Source of the DNA: Acidobacteriota bacterium
Lineage (GTDB): Bacteria > Acidobacteriota > Terriglobia > Acidiferrales > UBA7541
Length of the DNA: 64,000 nucleotides
NCBI GenBank assembly: GCA_013289835.1
Contig: JABCZG010000004.1
Span: forward strand, 62,001 to 126,000
Reading direction: 5' to 3'
Shown: one piece after another, positions 19,486 to 62,478 of the stretch
Layout of the letters: each line of letters begins with the position of its first letter
Numbering within the stretch: position 1 is the first letter of the stretch
Translations under genes and position numbers: made by a program
Notes under the pieces: generated by a model
The model's database searches: none
Seen by the model: the letters and a program-made list of their open reading frames with translations, nothing else
Told to the model about the DNA's origin: nothing

Positions 19486-20322
19486 ATGTCAGCGCGCAGC
19501 ACGTTCCTGAATCTCGCCACCAGAGCCGGCATCCTGTTTGGCGCACTATTTCTAGTCAGCGTATTGCTTGCCGCCATTCCCGGCCATCGCGCTCCCGCGG
19601 CGCAATCGCAGGGTTCGCAACAATCCTCCGGCTCGCAGGCGCAGGAATCGCAAGGGATGGACCACAGCAGCATGCCCGGAATGGACATGGACGACGCCAA
19701 GGCCAACGAGGCCCATGCTGTCCACGACATGACCCCCGGTCACATGGACGCACACAGCCTGCACATGCACATGACGGCGATGCGGCCCTCGAATCCGGAA
19801 GACACGGCGCGCGCCAAGGAAATTGCGGTGCAGCTGCGCAGCGGAATCGAAAAATACAAGGACTACCACGTCGCGTTGAACGAGGGTTACAAGATTTTCC
19901 TGCCGAATATCCCGCAGGCCGAATATCACTTTACCAATTACAAGAACGGATTCATGGAAGCCTTTTCCTTCGATCCCTCGCGGCCCACTTCCCTGCTCTA
20001 CAAGAAAACCGCCGATGGCTACGAGCTTGTCGGCGCCATGTACACCATGCCCAAGCGCGCCACGGAAGAGCAGCTCAATGAGCGCGTGCCGCTGAGCGTC
20101 GCCATGTGGCATATGCACACGAATCTCTGTATGCCGCCATGGGGACAGCGCGGCTCCGCCGACATGACCAAGTTTGGCCTGCACGGCGGCATCACCACGG
20201 AAGAAGCGTGCGACGCCGCCGGCGGCCACTTCCACCCCGTCGTCTTCGGATGGATGGTCCATGTCTATCCGTACGAAGATTCGCTCGACAAAATCTTCGC
20301 CATGCACCACCACATGGATTGA
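19486..20322 (+). CDS. Secreted Met/His-rich protein of unknown function
   Basis: 278 residues. A signal-anchor or signal peptide (about 10-36) is followed by a Gln/Ser linker and a Met/His cluster (MDHSSMPGMDMDD, HMDAHSLHMHMTAM) of the type that binds copper. The globular part has AEYHFTNYKNGFMEAFSFD, MWHMHTNLCMPPWG and GGHFHPVVFGWMVHVYPYE, again rich in His/Met/Cys. It ends with MHHHMD. ATG 19486 is used because GAGGAG lies seven bases upstream; an in-frame GTG at 19471 overlaps that site. Convergent with the YtkA-like gene, which is also His-rich. Metal binding is inferred from composition. Confidence 0.75.
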   Translation: MSARSTFLNLATRAGILFGALFLVSVLLAAIPGHRAPAAQSQGSQQSSGSQAQESQGMDHSSMPGMDMDDAKANEAHAVHDMTPGHMDAHSLHMHMTAMRPSNPEDTARAKEIAVQLRSGIEKYKDYHVALNEGYKIFLPNIPQAEYHFTNYKNGFMEAFSFDPSRPTSLLYKKTADGYELVGAMYTMPKRATEEQLNERVPLSVAMWHMHTNLCMPPWGQRGSADMTKFGLHGGITTEEACDAAGGHFHPVVFGWMVHVYPYEDSLDKIFAMHHHMD

Positions 20323-20415
20323 TTCCCGGCGCGAAGAAACTCCACGCACTAAATGCAAGGCGTGAATCTTGTGTGAGCAACACGCCTGATTGGAAGTTCT
20401 CCGCTGAGAGACGCT

Positions 20416-21924
20416 TCACTGCACGTGGGCGTCAAACACTCCTGTTTCTACTTGCCCCGCGCGTTTGACCTGCACGAATATTCGGTATTCGCCGGGGCGC
20501 GGAAAACCGTAGGGAAAGCTCACTTCAGCAGGCAGCGGCGCGTTTGACGTTGCCATTGGCATCGCCATCGGCGCGCCAACTTGCAATTCTCCCGACGCGC
20601 CCGCCTGCGCCGTTCGCGCCAACTCCAGCGCGGCCATGGAAACCGAGCCTGCCGGGTGAACGTGCGCGAACACGGCAAGGTCCGTGCTCACAAACTCCGC
20701 ATGCCCGGCCATTCCCATGTACGGCTCCATATTTGTGGCAGGCCTGCCGTCCTTGTCTTCCACGTTGAATTTGAAATTCATCGGCGTATTGCCGCGCAGC
20801 GGAACGCTAGGACGCTGCCACACCATTCGTCCGCCGTCAGCAAGCTGCGACACCGTGGACTCTTCTGCCGATGCGTTTACTGCGCCCCCAGACCAGCTTG
20901 AATCATCGCCCGCCAGCGCCTTGCCCTGAATCTGCGGCAGTTCGAGAGTTCCAACGAGCGTCCACGGAAAACCGTTCTTGTCCACAATGTCCGCGAACAC
21001 CTGGTAGCTCCCCGCAGGCATCGTCGGCAAATCCTCGGCGAACGCGCCATCCGCCGTTCGATCCGGATGCAGATGCCACATCTCCTGCAATCCCGGCGTG
21101 CGGAGCAAAAACAGATGCATCAGGTGATTGTGATCCGGGATCACTTCTTTCATCTTCATGTATCTCGACCACCTGGGGTCCTGCCCTTTGGCGCGAAGGA
21201 TCAGGCGGTTGCCGTTCTCAAGCGTCGTCTCCACGGCCGGGGGCTTGAAAAACGTCACCTCGCGATCGTAATTCCTGGCTTCTGAGTTCCACCACGCACC
21301 TCCCAAATACAAAATGGCAAATACGATGACCGCAGTGATCGCCATAGCGATTCGAGCGCGCCGCGCTCTCCCCGGCGCCGGCGCTTCGCCCGGCCGGAGG
21401 TTGCCTTCGCGCACCGCCGCTCCCGCGATGAAAACCAATCCCAGCGCGAGGAACAGCATCAGGAAAGTCAGCAAGCCTCCCAGAGGTTTGTCCATTTTCA
21501 GTGTCTGCCGCGCAAACGCGGCCACCGGCACGGAAAGCTCCCCTTTGCCTTTGGCGCCGTCCACCGAAACGCGCACTTTCAGCGCGCCATCCTCCATAAG
21601 CCAAAGGCTGCCGGTAAAAAATTGCGGGTCCTGCTTGGATTGTTCGGCCACATCCGGCGTGGGAGGAAGATTGGATCCCGCGCCGCTCAGCCGCATTGGC
21701 ACAATCTCAATCCTTTGCACATCGTTCGAAGCGGACCGGATTTGAATTTCGGCTATGCCGGGAATCACTTGCGGAATTCGAACCGTCACAAACAGGTGGT
21801 AGGGCCCCGCATCGCCTTCGCAATAGACATCCGGGCTGCCGACATGCGCGCTTACGGTAAGCGCGCCCGCCAGGAGCATGGCCAGGACCGCGAGGATTCC
21901 TTTGCGCGATGAAGGATCTTTCAT
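20416..21924 (-). CDS. Membrane protein with two beta-rich domains, YtkA-like; possible mature N-terminal histidine
   Basis: 502 residues. The signal peptide ends LTVSA, so cleavage would leave His27 as the first mature residue (HVGSPDVYCEGDAGP). A beta-rich domain (27-145) is followed by two transmembrane helices (about 148-171 and 190-212). A larger beta-rich region then carries PDHNHLMHLFLL (263-274), MWHLHP (282-287) and FAHVHPAGSVSM (about 430). The last part resembles YtkA/FixH-like domains. ATG 21924 overlaps the TGA of the upstream polytopic gene by four bases. Function unknown; the His pattern suggests copper or another metal. Confidence 0.75.
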   Translation of the reverse strand: MKDPSSRKGILAVLAMLLAGALTVSAHVGSPDVYCEGDAGPYHLFVTVRIPQVIPGIAEIQIRSASNDVQRIEIVPMRLSGAGSNLPPTPDVAEQSKQDPQFFTGSLWLMEDGALKVRVSVDGAKGKGELSVPVAAFARQTLKMDKPLGGLLTFLMLFLALGLVFIAGAAVREGNLRPGEAPAPGRARRARIAMAITAVIVFAILYLGGAWWNSEARNYDREVTFFKPPAVETTLENGNRLILRAKGQDPRWSRYMKMKEVIPDHNHLMHLFLLRTPGLQEMWHLHPDRTADGAFAEDLPTMPAGSYQVFADIVDKNGFPWTLVGTLELPQIQGKALAGDDSSWSGGAVNASAEESTVSQLADGGRMVWQRPSVPLRGNTPMNFKFNVEDKDGRPATNMEPYMGMAGHAEFVSTDLAVFAHVHPAGSVSMAALELARTAQAGASGELQVGAPMAMPMATSNAPLPAEVSFPYGFPRPGEYRIFVQVKRAGQVETGVFDAHVQ

Positions 21925-23111
21925 CGCCGGAGCCGCCGCATCCAGTCTCCCCACGAGAATCCCAGCCGTGCCGTGATCACGGAAACGACTAGCGCCGCAG
22001 CCATCACTCCCAAAAACTGCCCTCGTGTCTTCTCTGCAAGCTGAAATTTGTAAGGATCGTACAGAAAATTCGCCGGATCAAAATACGCAAAATACGCCAT
22101 CCCAAAAAACCGGTTCCGTGCCGCGGGCGACATCAAGAAATTTGCAAAGGGCCACTCCGCCGCAAGGAAACTCAAAACGAATACCGGTCCCGACACCGCC
22201 GCCAACTTCCATCTTCCCCAATGCTCTTTATTATTCAAAAGCACATCAAGAACAACCGCAGGCACGAGCAGCAAAAGGGGGAAATGCAGAGGAACAAGAT
22301 GCGTAATGTTTTGGTAGACCGGGCCAAGCTTCGGCTGTGCCGGAAACAGTGGCAGGATCCATTCCGATGCCAGCTGTATTGCCGTGTAGGTTGCTGCCAC
22401 GGTCGTGCAAGCCCACCGCCGCGCCAGTCCCCACGCCGCGCCGACCAACATCGGAGGCATGCCAATCGCTACCGCCAGGTAGCACCCCGCGTTGTGCAAA
22501 TTTACGGGCCACGTCGCGTCAGTGAGCATCGTTCCCATCTGCACCACGCAATCCGCGCCCACGAACACGAAAAGCCACCCCAGAGTTCGCCGCACGCTTT
22601 CCGTCGCGCGGTTCATCAGCCCTGCCATTAACGCCAGCGCACCCAATTTAATCCCAAATGATCCCAAGGAAAGCAGCACGTGCGGCGGGCTCACAATCTT
22701 CACGTCCAGGCCGTACGCGTTGTGCCACCAATTGTCGAAGGGCGCCGACGTCAGCATGGCCACGCAGCCCCACACGGCGATGAACGCGCCCAGCGGCCCG
22801 CGGAATCCCCAAATCTTCACCGAGGTGCTCTGTGCCACCGCGTCGCCGCCGAACGTAGCTGTCAAAATCATGTAACCGCAGGCAATTCCCACCAGTACGC
22901 CGTTCAATTGAATGAGTATGTGCGCCGGCGTCCAGAACGTGTCCCGCCCAATGGACATGTGCCAGGAAATATCCCAGTGCCCGCCAATCAGGCTGGAAAG
23001 GATACCTGCCACCACGCACCAGATCGGCCACGGGACTGAGTCCACTGTCGCAGAAGCGTGCGCTCCCGTTTGCGCGTGCAATGTTTGCCCAAGAGGAAAA
23101 GCGTCTGCCAT
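21921..23111 (-). CDS. Polytopic membrane protein with conserved-looking His/Trp motif, function unknown
   Basis: 396 residues and about ten hydrophobic helices. Striking polar motifs sit at the membrane edge: GGHWDISWHMSIGRD (about 43-57), then TPAH (61-64), FDNWWHNAYG, SPPHVLLSLGSFG, NLHNAGCY, and NITHLVPLHFP. Several His residues in or near helices are unusual and suggest metal or cofactor binding. ATG 23111 has GGAGGAG nine bases upstream; a TTG 18 bases earlier lies on that site. Translationally coupled to the downstream YtkA-like protein, so the two probably form one complex. I do not recognise a characterised family. Confidence 0.75.
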   Translation of the reverse strand: MADAFPLGQTLHAQTGAHASATVDSVPWPIWCVVAGILSSLIGGHWDISWHMSIGRDTFWTPAHILIQLNGVLVGIACGYMILTATFGGDAVAQSTSVKIWGFRGPLGAFIAVWGCVAMLTSAPFDNWWHNAYGLDVKIVSPPHVLLSLGSFGIKLGALALMAGLMNRATESVRRTLGWLFVFVGADCVVQMGTMLTDATWPVNLHNAGCYLAVAIGMPPMLVGAAWGLARRWACTTVAATYTAIQLASEWILPLFPAQPKLGPVYQNITHLVPLHFPLLLLVPAVVLDVLLNNKEHWGRWKLAAVSGPVFVLSFLAAEWPFANFLMSPAARNRFFGMAYFAYFDPANFLYDPYKFQLAEKTRGQFLGVMAAALVVSVITARLGFSWGDWMRRLRR

Positions 23112-61755: not shown

Positions 61756-62478
61756 ATGCCAGTCAAAAACCGCAACGGCATGCCGGCCTATCAGCGCATC
61801 CAGGCTGTGATCCGCAAGCGCATTGATGCTGGGCAACTGCGGCCCGGGGACGCCGTTGCTTCCGAGCGCGACCTCGCCAAGATCCATCAGGTCAGCCTGA
61901 TGACCGCGCGCCACGCGCTCGCCTATCTCGAGCGCGAAGGCATCGTCGAACGCCGCCGCGGGATCGGCACCTTCGTCGCTGCGCCGAAAATTCATTTCAA
62001 CAAATTGATGAGCTACACGGAGCAGATGGCCAGCCGCAGCCTTACCGCCGCGTCGAAAGTGCTCTTCGCAAAAGTGAGCGAGAACGAAAGCGAGGCCGCG
62101 GCGCGTCTTTCCCTTCCGCCCACGAGCAGCGTGATCAAGCTGGAGCGCGTGCGTCACGCCGGCGGCGAACCTTTTGCGCTTGAGACGTGTTACCTGAATG
62201 CCGCGGAATTTTCTGGGCTGCTGGATACTCCCCTCGGACGCGAGTCCTTATTTGGCATCCTGGAGCGCAACTACAAAATTGAACTCGGCTACGCCGACGA
62301 AGAAGTCGACGCCACCGCCGCCGATCCGCACATTGCCGAATTACTCTCCATTCCGCGTCGCGAACCGCTGCTGCGCATCCGCCAAGTGATCTATTCCAGT
62401 AAAGGCAAGGCCATTATGTACGTCCTGGGTTTTTACCGCTCGGACCGCCACAATCTCGTGATTCGCCGGTTCCGGTAA
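61756..62478 (+). CDS. GntR-family (HutC/UTRA) transcriptional regulator
   Basis: 240 residues. Winged-helix DNA-binding domain (PAYQRIQAVIRKRIDAGQLRPGDAVASERDLAKIHQVSLMTARHALAYLEREGIVERRRG, the standard GntR profile) and a C-terminal UTRA effector domain (SSVIKLERVRHAGGEPFALETCYL). NagR-type regulators of this group sense GlcN-6-P or GlcNAc-6-P, which fits nagB 73 bases downstream. ATG 61756 has GGGAG upstream; ATG 61711 lacks one. Confidence 0.9.
   Translation: MPVKNRNGMPAYQRIQAVIRKRIDAGQLRPGDAVASERDLAKIHQVSLMTARHALAYLEREGIVERRRGIGTFVAAPKIHFNKLMSYTEQMASRSLTAASKVLFAKVSENESEAAARLSLPPTSSVIKLERVRHAGGEPFALETCYLNAAEFSGLLDTPLGRESLFGILERNYKIELGYADEEVDATAADPHIAELLSIPRREPLLRIRQVIYSSKGKAIMYVLGFYRSDRHNLVIRRFR

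Follow-up and report, generated by a model that had tools for sequence, protein, structure and literature searches.

A two-gene locus of Acidobacteriota encoding a putative PmoC-PmoA fusion protein and a PmoB-like partner, a likely divergent relative of copper membrane monooxygenases

Results

Gene organisation of the CA-B locus

The 64,000-nucleotide stretch of DNA analysed here (the window), positions 62,001 to 126,000 of contig JABCZG010000004.1 from an Acidobacteriota bacterium, carries on its minus strand two coupled genes, to which we give the names CA and B. CA encodes a ten-helix membrane protein and B an exported or membrane-anchored protein, and their likely relatives are the copper membrane monooxygenases (CuMMOs), the superfamily of particulate methane monooxygenase (pMMO) and ammonia monooxygenase (AMO). 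The features of the pair, numbered from the first letter of the window, are as follows.

21921-23111, minus strand: CA, ten-helix membrane protein of 396 residues, a putative fusion of a PmoC core (residues ~17-172) and a PmoA-like part (residues ~168-396)
22920-22973, minus strand: DISWHMSIGRDTFWTPAH, CA residues 47-64, equivalent of D156, H160 and H173 of PmoC (CuC site), spacing D-x3-H-x12-H
22680-22736, minus strand: DNWWHNAYGLDVKIVSPPH, CA residues 126-144, equivalent of N227, H231 and H245 of PmoC (CuD site), with Asp126 in place of Asn and spacings x3 and x13
20416-21924, minus strand: B, PmoB-like exported or anchored protein of 502 residues, with a signal peptide, an N-terminal beta domain, two transmembrane (TM) helices and a C-terminal His-rich beta region
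21844-21846, minus strand: codon of His27 of B, predicted residue 1 of the mature protein

CA lies upstream of B, and its stop codon overlaps the B start (ATG at 21924-21922) in an ATGA; the coordinates thus bear out the coupling of the two genes proposed in the initial annotation. The order, CA then B, is the canonical pmoC-A-B order, and the C and A parts of CA form one open frame, whereas in CuMMOs they are separate subunits. CuMMOs, trimeric copper enzymes that hydroxylate methane, ammonia or small hydrocarbons, carry out the initial steps of methane oxidation and nitrification; the location of their catalytic copper site has been disputed for decades.

The first half of CA is related to PmoC

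In pMMO, the CuC site is formed by D156, H160 and H173, and the CuD site by N227, H231 and H245 (PMC12576850). CA contains HWDISWHMSIGRD, as the initial annotation had noted, and W46, D47, W50, H51, R56, D57 and H64 are invariant among its homologues. Aligned with DGTWHQTIVRDTDFTPSH of Methylococcus PmoC, whose sequence we confirmed against PDB chains, DISWHMSIGRDTFWTPAH of the window is identical at 10 of 18 positions. The likeness to PmoC/AmoC (PF04896, TIGR03078, NF041641) includes a WHxxIxRDTxxTPxH motif and the second-shell arginine, R165 of PmoC corresponding to R56 of CA. The CuC-type ligands D47, H51 and H64 are present with the PmoC spacing in all 92 homologues that cover them, and the CuD-type histidine pair H130/H144 (H231 and H245 of PmoC), with its x13 spacing, in 93/93. 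The combined six-ligand pattern, D-x3-H-x12-H followed by [N/D]-x3-H-x13-H, is found in 92/93 CA proteins and 81/88 canonical PmoC proteins, in 0/1,892 other open reading frames (ORFs) of the same loci and in 0/18,600 shuffled CA sequences.

AmoC/PmoC is the sole family that CA matches recurrently. The window protein matches AmoC weakly (E 0.075 with Pfam, 0.014 with NCBIfam); among 75 homologues, the Pfam model matches 9 (best E 1.3e-4) and the NCBIfam model 11 (best E 3.5e-5). With a PmoC hidden Markov model (HMM), 57 of 80 CA proteins outscore all of ~2,300 shuffled, reversed and unrelated negatives, and profile-profile comparison with hhalign (run with -norealign; the realignment setting gave no match) scores 39.8 against PmoC over only 19 columns, column-shuffled alignments reaching at most 22. 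When the Pfam AmoC model is run over 15 whole genomes, its top match falls in CA in 11 of them. Conversely, a blind search of 240 genomes of the phylum Verrucomicrobiota with the CA profile returned one family member and, apart from it, canonical PmoC genes alone; these lie beside pmoA in two genomes of 2.2-2.3 Mb, at genome-wide E-values of 4e-4 and 5e-4.

The AlphaFold model of CA is confident, with a predicted local distance difference test score (pLDDT) of 90.6 and a predicted template modelling score of 0.89, and confirms the ten helices read from the sequence in the initial annotation. Searched against the PDB with Foldseek, its only matches combining a probability above 0.5 with a compact root-mean-square deviation (rmsd) are PmoC/AmoC chains of several organisms (0.54-0.85), and VIA-align superposes CA residues 17-172 on PmoC 94-246 (Z 7.2, rmsd 3.9, 142 aligned residues). 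The sequence evidence for a PmoC-like first half is strong, and common descent of CA with PmoC appears highly probable.

The second half of CA has a PmoA-like fold

In VIA-align, the top 12 PDB rows for the CA model are all PmoA/AmoA (Z 12.4-13.3, rmsd 3.8-5.2, 187-212 aligned residues, 12-17% identity), falling mostly on residues ~168-396; the first unrelated row follows at Z 10.3. The structural register is the same as that given by hhalign, CA 395/396 corresponding to PmoA 242. The hhalign alignment runs end to end, places P278 (invariant) and D289 (near-invariant) of CA opposite P121 and D132 of PmoA, both invariant, and keeps the FP...LD and WP positions in register. The region is thus like PmoA/AmoA (PF02461) in fold and differs from it in having no significant sequence match and in not being a separate subunit. 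The PmoA motif GDWDFWxDWKDR is not seen in CA, the Pfam AMO model (PF02461) gives nothing above cut-off over the whole genomes, PDB profile searches with the CA or the B family return no CuMMO, and a viral fold library gives no match (best probability 0.16); no PmoA was found in viral contigs. For the second half the support is structural and suggests a PmoA-type domain, and we consider it very likely that CA is a fusion of PmoC and PmoA.

B has the layout of PmoB and a conserved histidine at its predicted mature N-terminus

The AlphaFold model of B (pLDDT 91.4) has the layout of PmoB: an N-terminal beta domain, then a pair of TM helices, then a large beta region at the C-terminus. Cleavage of the signal peptide is predicted after VSA (residues 26/27) and would leave His27 as the first residue of the mature protein, the counterpart of H33 in PmoB; this histidine is present in 68/68 homologues covering the site, with Ala at -1 in 66/68. 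The C-terminal region contains seven further invariant histidines. The likeness to PmoB/AmoB (PF04744) thus comprises the signal peptide, the predicted mature N-terminal His, the beta domain, the two TM helices and the C-terminal beta region, as well as the position of the gene directly after C-A; B differs in lacking the HxH of the CuB site and in its bigger C-terminal region. The Pfam model Monooxygenase_B (PF04744) gives nothing above cut-off over the whole genomes.

Other relationships of B point to copper proteins. Among the listed structural matches of its N-terminal domain, the closest are CrdA (Z 10.0, 99 aligned residues) and CopC (Z 9.0, 95 aligned residues), and in the PDB profile search the B family weakly matches the copper protein CrdA. 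B differs from CopC and CrdA in its two TM helices, its second His-rich region and its coupling to a CuMMO-like membrane protein. The C-terminal His-rich region is related to secreted proteins, found at five loci (L012, L013, L014, L017 and L018), in which a heavy-metal-binding HMBD segment (CPMD..C..CGM) precedes a domain like the C-terminal one of B.

The predictions made for B from the window sequence, namely the cleavage that exposes a histidine and the order of beta domain, two helices and His-rich beta region, agree with these data; the N-terminal histidine of B, seven others of the same protein and the histidine ligands of CA are conserved in the homologues. The proposed complex, binding copper or depending on it and having His as the first mature residue of one partner, is well supported, copper binding itself being our inference. 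The resemblance to the PmoB layout, to which no homology claim had been attached, proved a good lead, while the key kinship lies in the ten-helix protein, with its PmoC motif and its modelled PmoC-PmoA fusion. Of the profile families suggested for B, YtkA matches 2 of 61 members and CopC 1, all weakly, and PmoB gives no significant match.

Distribution and gene neighbourhood of the CA-B pair

Scanned for CA, 84,980 species genomes yielded 109 relatives; 80 loci were kept, and in 74 of these B is detectable beside CA. The gap between the genes is -22 to +95 nt in 67 of the 68 pairs in which it was measured, 38 of them overlapping in an ATGA; as B start we took the candidate nearest the CA stop, a choice that biases towards small gaps. 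Carriers, many of them from soil or peat metagenomes, belong to Acidobacteriota, Gemmatimonadota, Verrucomicrobiota, Binatota and others by the phylum labels of the database records, some of which may be wrong for metagenome-assembled genomes (MAGs). The CA tree groups by phylum, with exceptions. Since CA is present in only 16 of the 297 genomes sampled from Acidobacteriota (as mere fragments in two) and in 6 of 36 members of the genus, we regard it as accessory. A very divergent pair from another Acidobacteriota family (L251:4164-6652, minus strand) has kept every one of the six ligand positions, and its B the N-terminal His. Among the carriers available in culture are Granulicella, Silvibacterium bohemicum, Acidipila rosea, Bryocella elongata and Occallatibacter savannae, which makes the pair directly testable.

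Neighbour-gene clustering and a Pfam scan of the loci revealed no recurrent partner gene beside the pair, copper efflux and uptake genes included, and no bridging form with split C and A genes occurs among the loci fetched. The source genome has PQQ alcohol dehydrogenases; they say little about the substrate, because relatives of the search model match widely. A multihaem model of the HAO type found no match in 15 genomes, a result made uninformative by positive controls that gave no match either.

Three observations on individual genomes stand apart. One CA frame (L235, G251) has a single internal TAG, which may reflect a recent pseudogene or a sequencing error. A Binataceae MAG (G391) carries a CA-B pair (L134 and L060 being its loci in question) together with part of a canonical PmoC gene at the end of a contig. 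A canonical AmoC/PmoC gene occurs in one Acidobacteriota genome (L133/L223, contig C71 of G143), on a 3.3 kb contig that may be contamination.

A proposed copper-dependent oxygenase and its alternatives

In the model that we propose, CA and B would form a complex with two polypeptides where CuMMOs have three, and this complex would be a very remote relative of the pMMO/AMO superfamily. In the PmoC half, D47/H51/H64 and D126/H130/H144 would hold copper within the membrane; this copper may activate O2 and hydroxylate a small substrate, with quinol as the presumed electron donor. On the periplasmic side B would form a cap, and it might bind copper or supply it by way of the His at its mature N-terminus and of its C-terminal His-rich domain. 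We judge this combination of a fused CA, a PmoB-like B and a copper-dependent, oxygenase-type mechanism to be the likely explanation of the data as a whole; that the pair is an active oxygenase is the outcome towards which we lean. A CuMMO-like oxygenase probably fits better than the 'metal handling' under which the system had been filed, a frame that is probably wrong.

A number of results weigh against this proposal. For CA, no curated cut-off of any family model is reached (AmoC stays below its own), the position of the CuD ligand Asn227 is Asp126 in 93/93 homologues, and the Foldseek E-values for PmoC exceed 0.5 and are not significant. The PmoA signal is fainter still in sequence: HMMER scores of PmoA against the CA half are lower than those of shuffles and have no significance, hhalign against whole CA is marginal (24.8, shuffles up to 20.6), and against the half alone it gives 24.1 with shuffles up to 26.5. 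Helical bundles can moreover reach a VIA-align Z of ~13 through their common arrangement; we therefore place the weight on the ranking of the matches, on the Z gap and on the two halves pointing to neighbouring subunits in operon order. For B, none of 69 homologues has in its N-terminal domain an HxH that would match CuB H137/H139, the PmoB HMM does not score above controls, and PmoB is not among the structural matches listed for B, which are filled by Ig-like domains; this last absence does not in itself exclude kinship with PmoB. At the level of the loci, five CA homologues (L063, L070, L073, L092 and L108) have no detectable B downstream, three of them being the second copy of a genome whose other CA is paired with B, and no conserved neighbour beside the pair indicates a substrate.

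The findings on CA bear on whether its resemblance to CuMMOs could be fortuitous, that is, whether an unrelated ten-helix protein has come by convergence or chance to carry a short His/Asp motif and a packing like those of PmoC and PmoA. The marginal conventional E-values, the shortness of the PmoC profile-profile match, the weak PmoA sequence signal and the middling structural scores usual for helical bundles would all fit such an origin. The exact six-ligand spacing is nevertheless missing from every control, the halves match adjacent subunits of one enzyme in their operon order, and canonical PmoC was recovered in a blind search, and we hold chance resemblance to be very improbable.

The findings on B bear on the main rival explanation, in which CA-B, descended from CuMMOs or sharing ancestry with them, would be a non-catalytic complex for copper uptake, storage or sensing, with B as a binder of the CopC/CrdA type. 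The nearest folds of the B N-domain, the occurrence of its C-terminal domain in secreted HMBD-bearing proteins, the incomplete CuB ligands and the lack of metabolic genes neighbouring the pair are in keeping with this view. A complex that only handles copper accounts less readily for the retention of all six PmoC ligand positions, exactly spaced, over several phyla, or for that of the PmoA-like half, and copper efflux or uptake genes do not recur beside the pair; we consider it unlikely. The particulate methane monooxygenases of verrucomicrobial methanotrophs are also without the CuB histidines (PMC8630023), so that their loss in B does not exclude activity. Because no sequence comparison links B significantly to PmoB, its assignment as PmoB-like is only architectural, drawing on layout, gene position and the N-terminal His.

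Relation of CA-B to known CuMMOs

If the proposed mechanism holds, CA-B would operate in the manner of a CuMMO. We nevertheless do not file it as a member of the CuMMO family, since its C and A parts are not separate subunits, CuB HxH and Asn227 are absent and the scores lie below the curated cut-offs; CA also lacks the N-terminal part of PmoC. Archaeal AMO has been termed the most distantly related CuMMO (PMC10030591). The CuMMOs of Angelarchaeales have separate A, B and C subunits and all three CuB histidines, and keep the C-site while the D-site is absent (PMC9038741). CA-B resembles these archaeal enzymes in being divergent, with a shortened AmoC; it differs from those of Angelarchaeales in that CA keeps the D-site His pair and B is without CuB.

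The open-access papers searched yielded no account of a fused C-A form or of the CA family, and the family is unmentioned in a comparative genomics paper on Acidobacteria (PMC5900883) and in one on Amazon soil MAGs (PMC9455692); subscription papers and preprints lay outside the scope of this search, and novelty is therefore provisional. The family falls below Pfam cut-offs and is invisible to current family models, and it is presumably missed by pmoA/amoA primers. If active, it would represent an oxidation capacity of Acidobacteriota and Gemmatimonadota that is new and hidden from gene surveys. A distant relative with CuC/CuD ligands and without CuB histidines also offers a natural experiment on the question of the catalytic site. 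We give an even chance to the wider reading that CA-B is an unrecognised, phylum-spanning CuMMO class of Acidobacteriota, Gemmatimonadota and others, with fused C-A, no CuB site and some small substrate; were it true, CuC/CuD, and not CuB, would be the ancestral catalytic core.

The convergent third gene

One further gene of the window lies next to the pair.

19486-20322, plus strand: convergent gene encoding a secreted Met/His-rich protein, with no Pfam match

The initial annotation had counted this gene as part of one metal-handling system and had named co-occurrence of the three genes in other genomes as a check. The only neighbourhoods to suggest such a system are those of the window and of the two loci most closely related to it (L053 in G022 and L054 in G016), where the three genes lie together. 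Elsewhere the third gene is not beside the pair; among 101 related genomes its family is present in 43, the majority of which have no CA-B. Being mostly found without CA and rarely adjacent to it, the gene falls outside the system, and a three-gene system that includes it, rejected on distribution and synteny, is extremely improbable. The gene occurs in 34 of 36 members of the genus and in several other genera of the same taxonomic family, independently of the pair.

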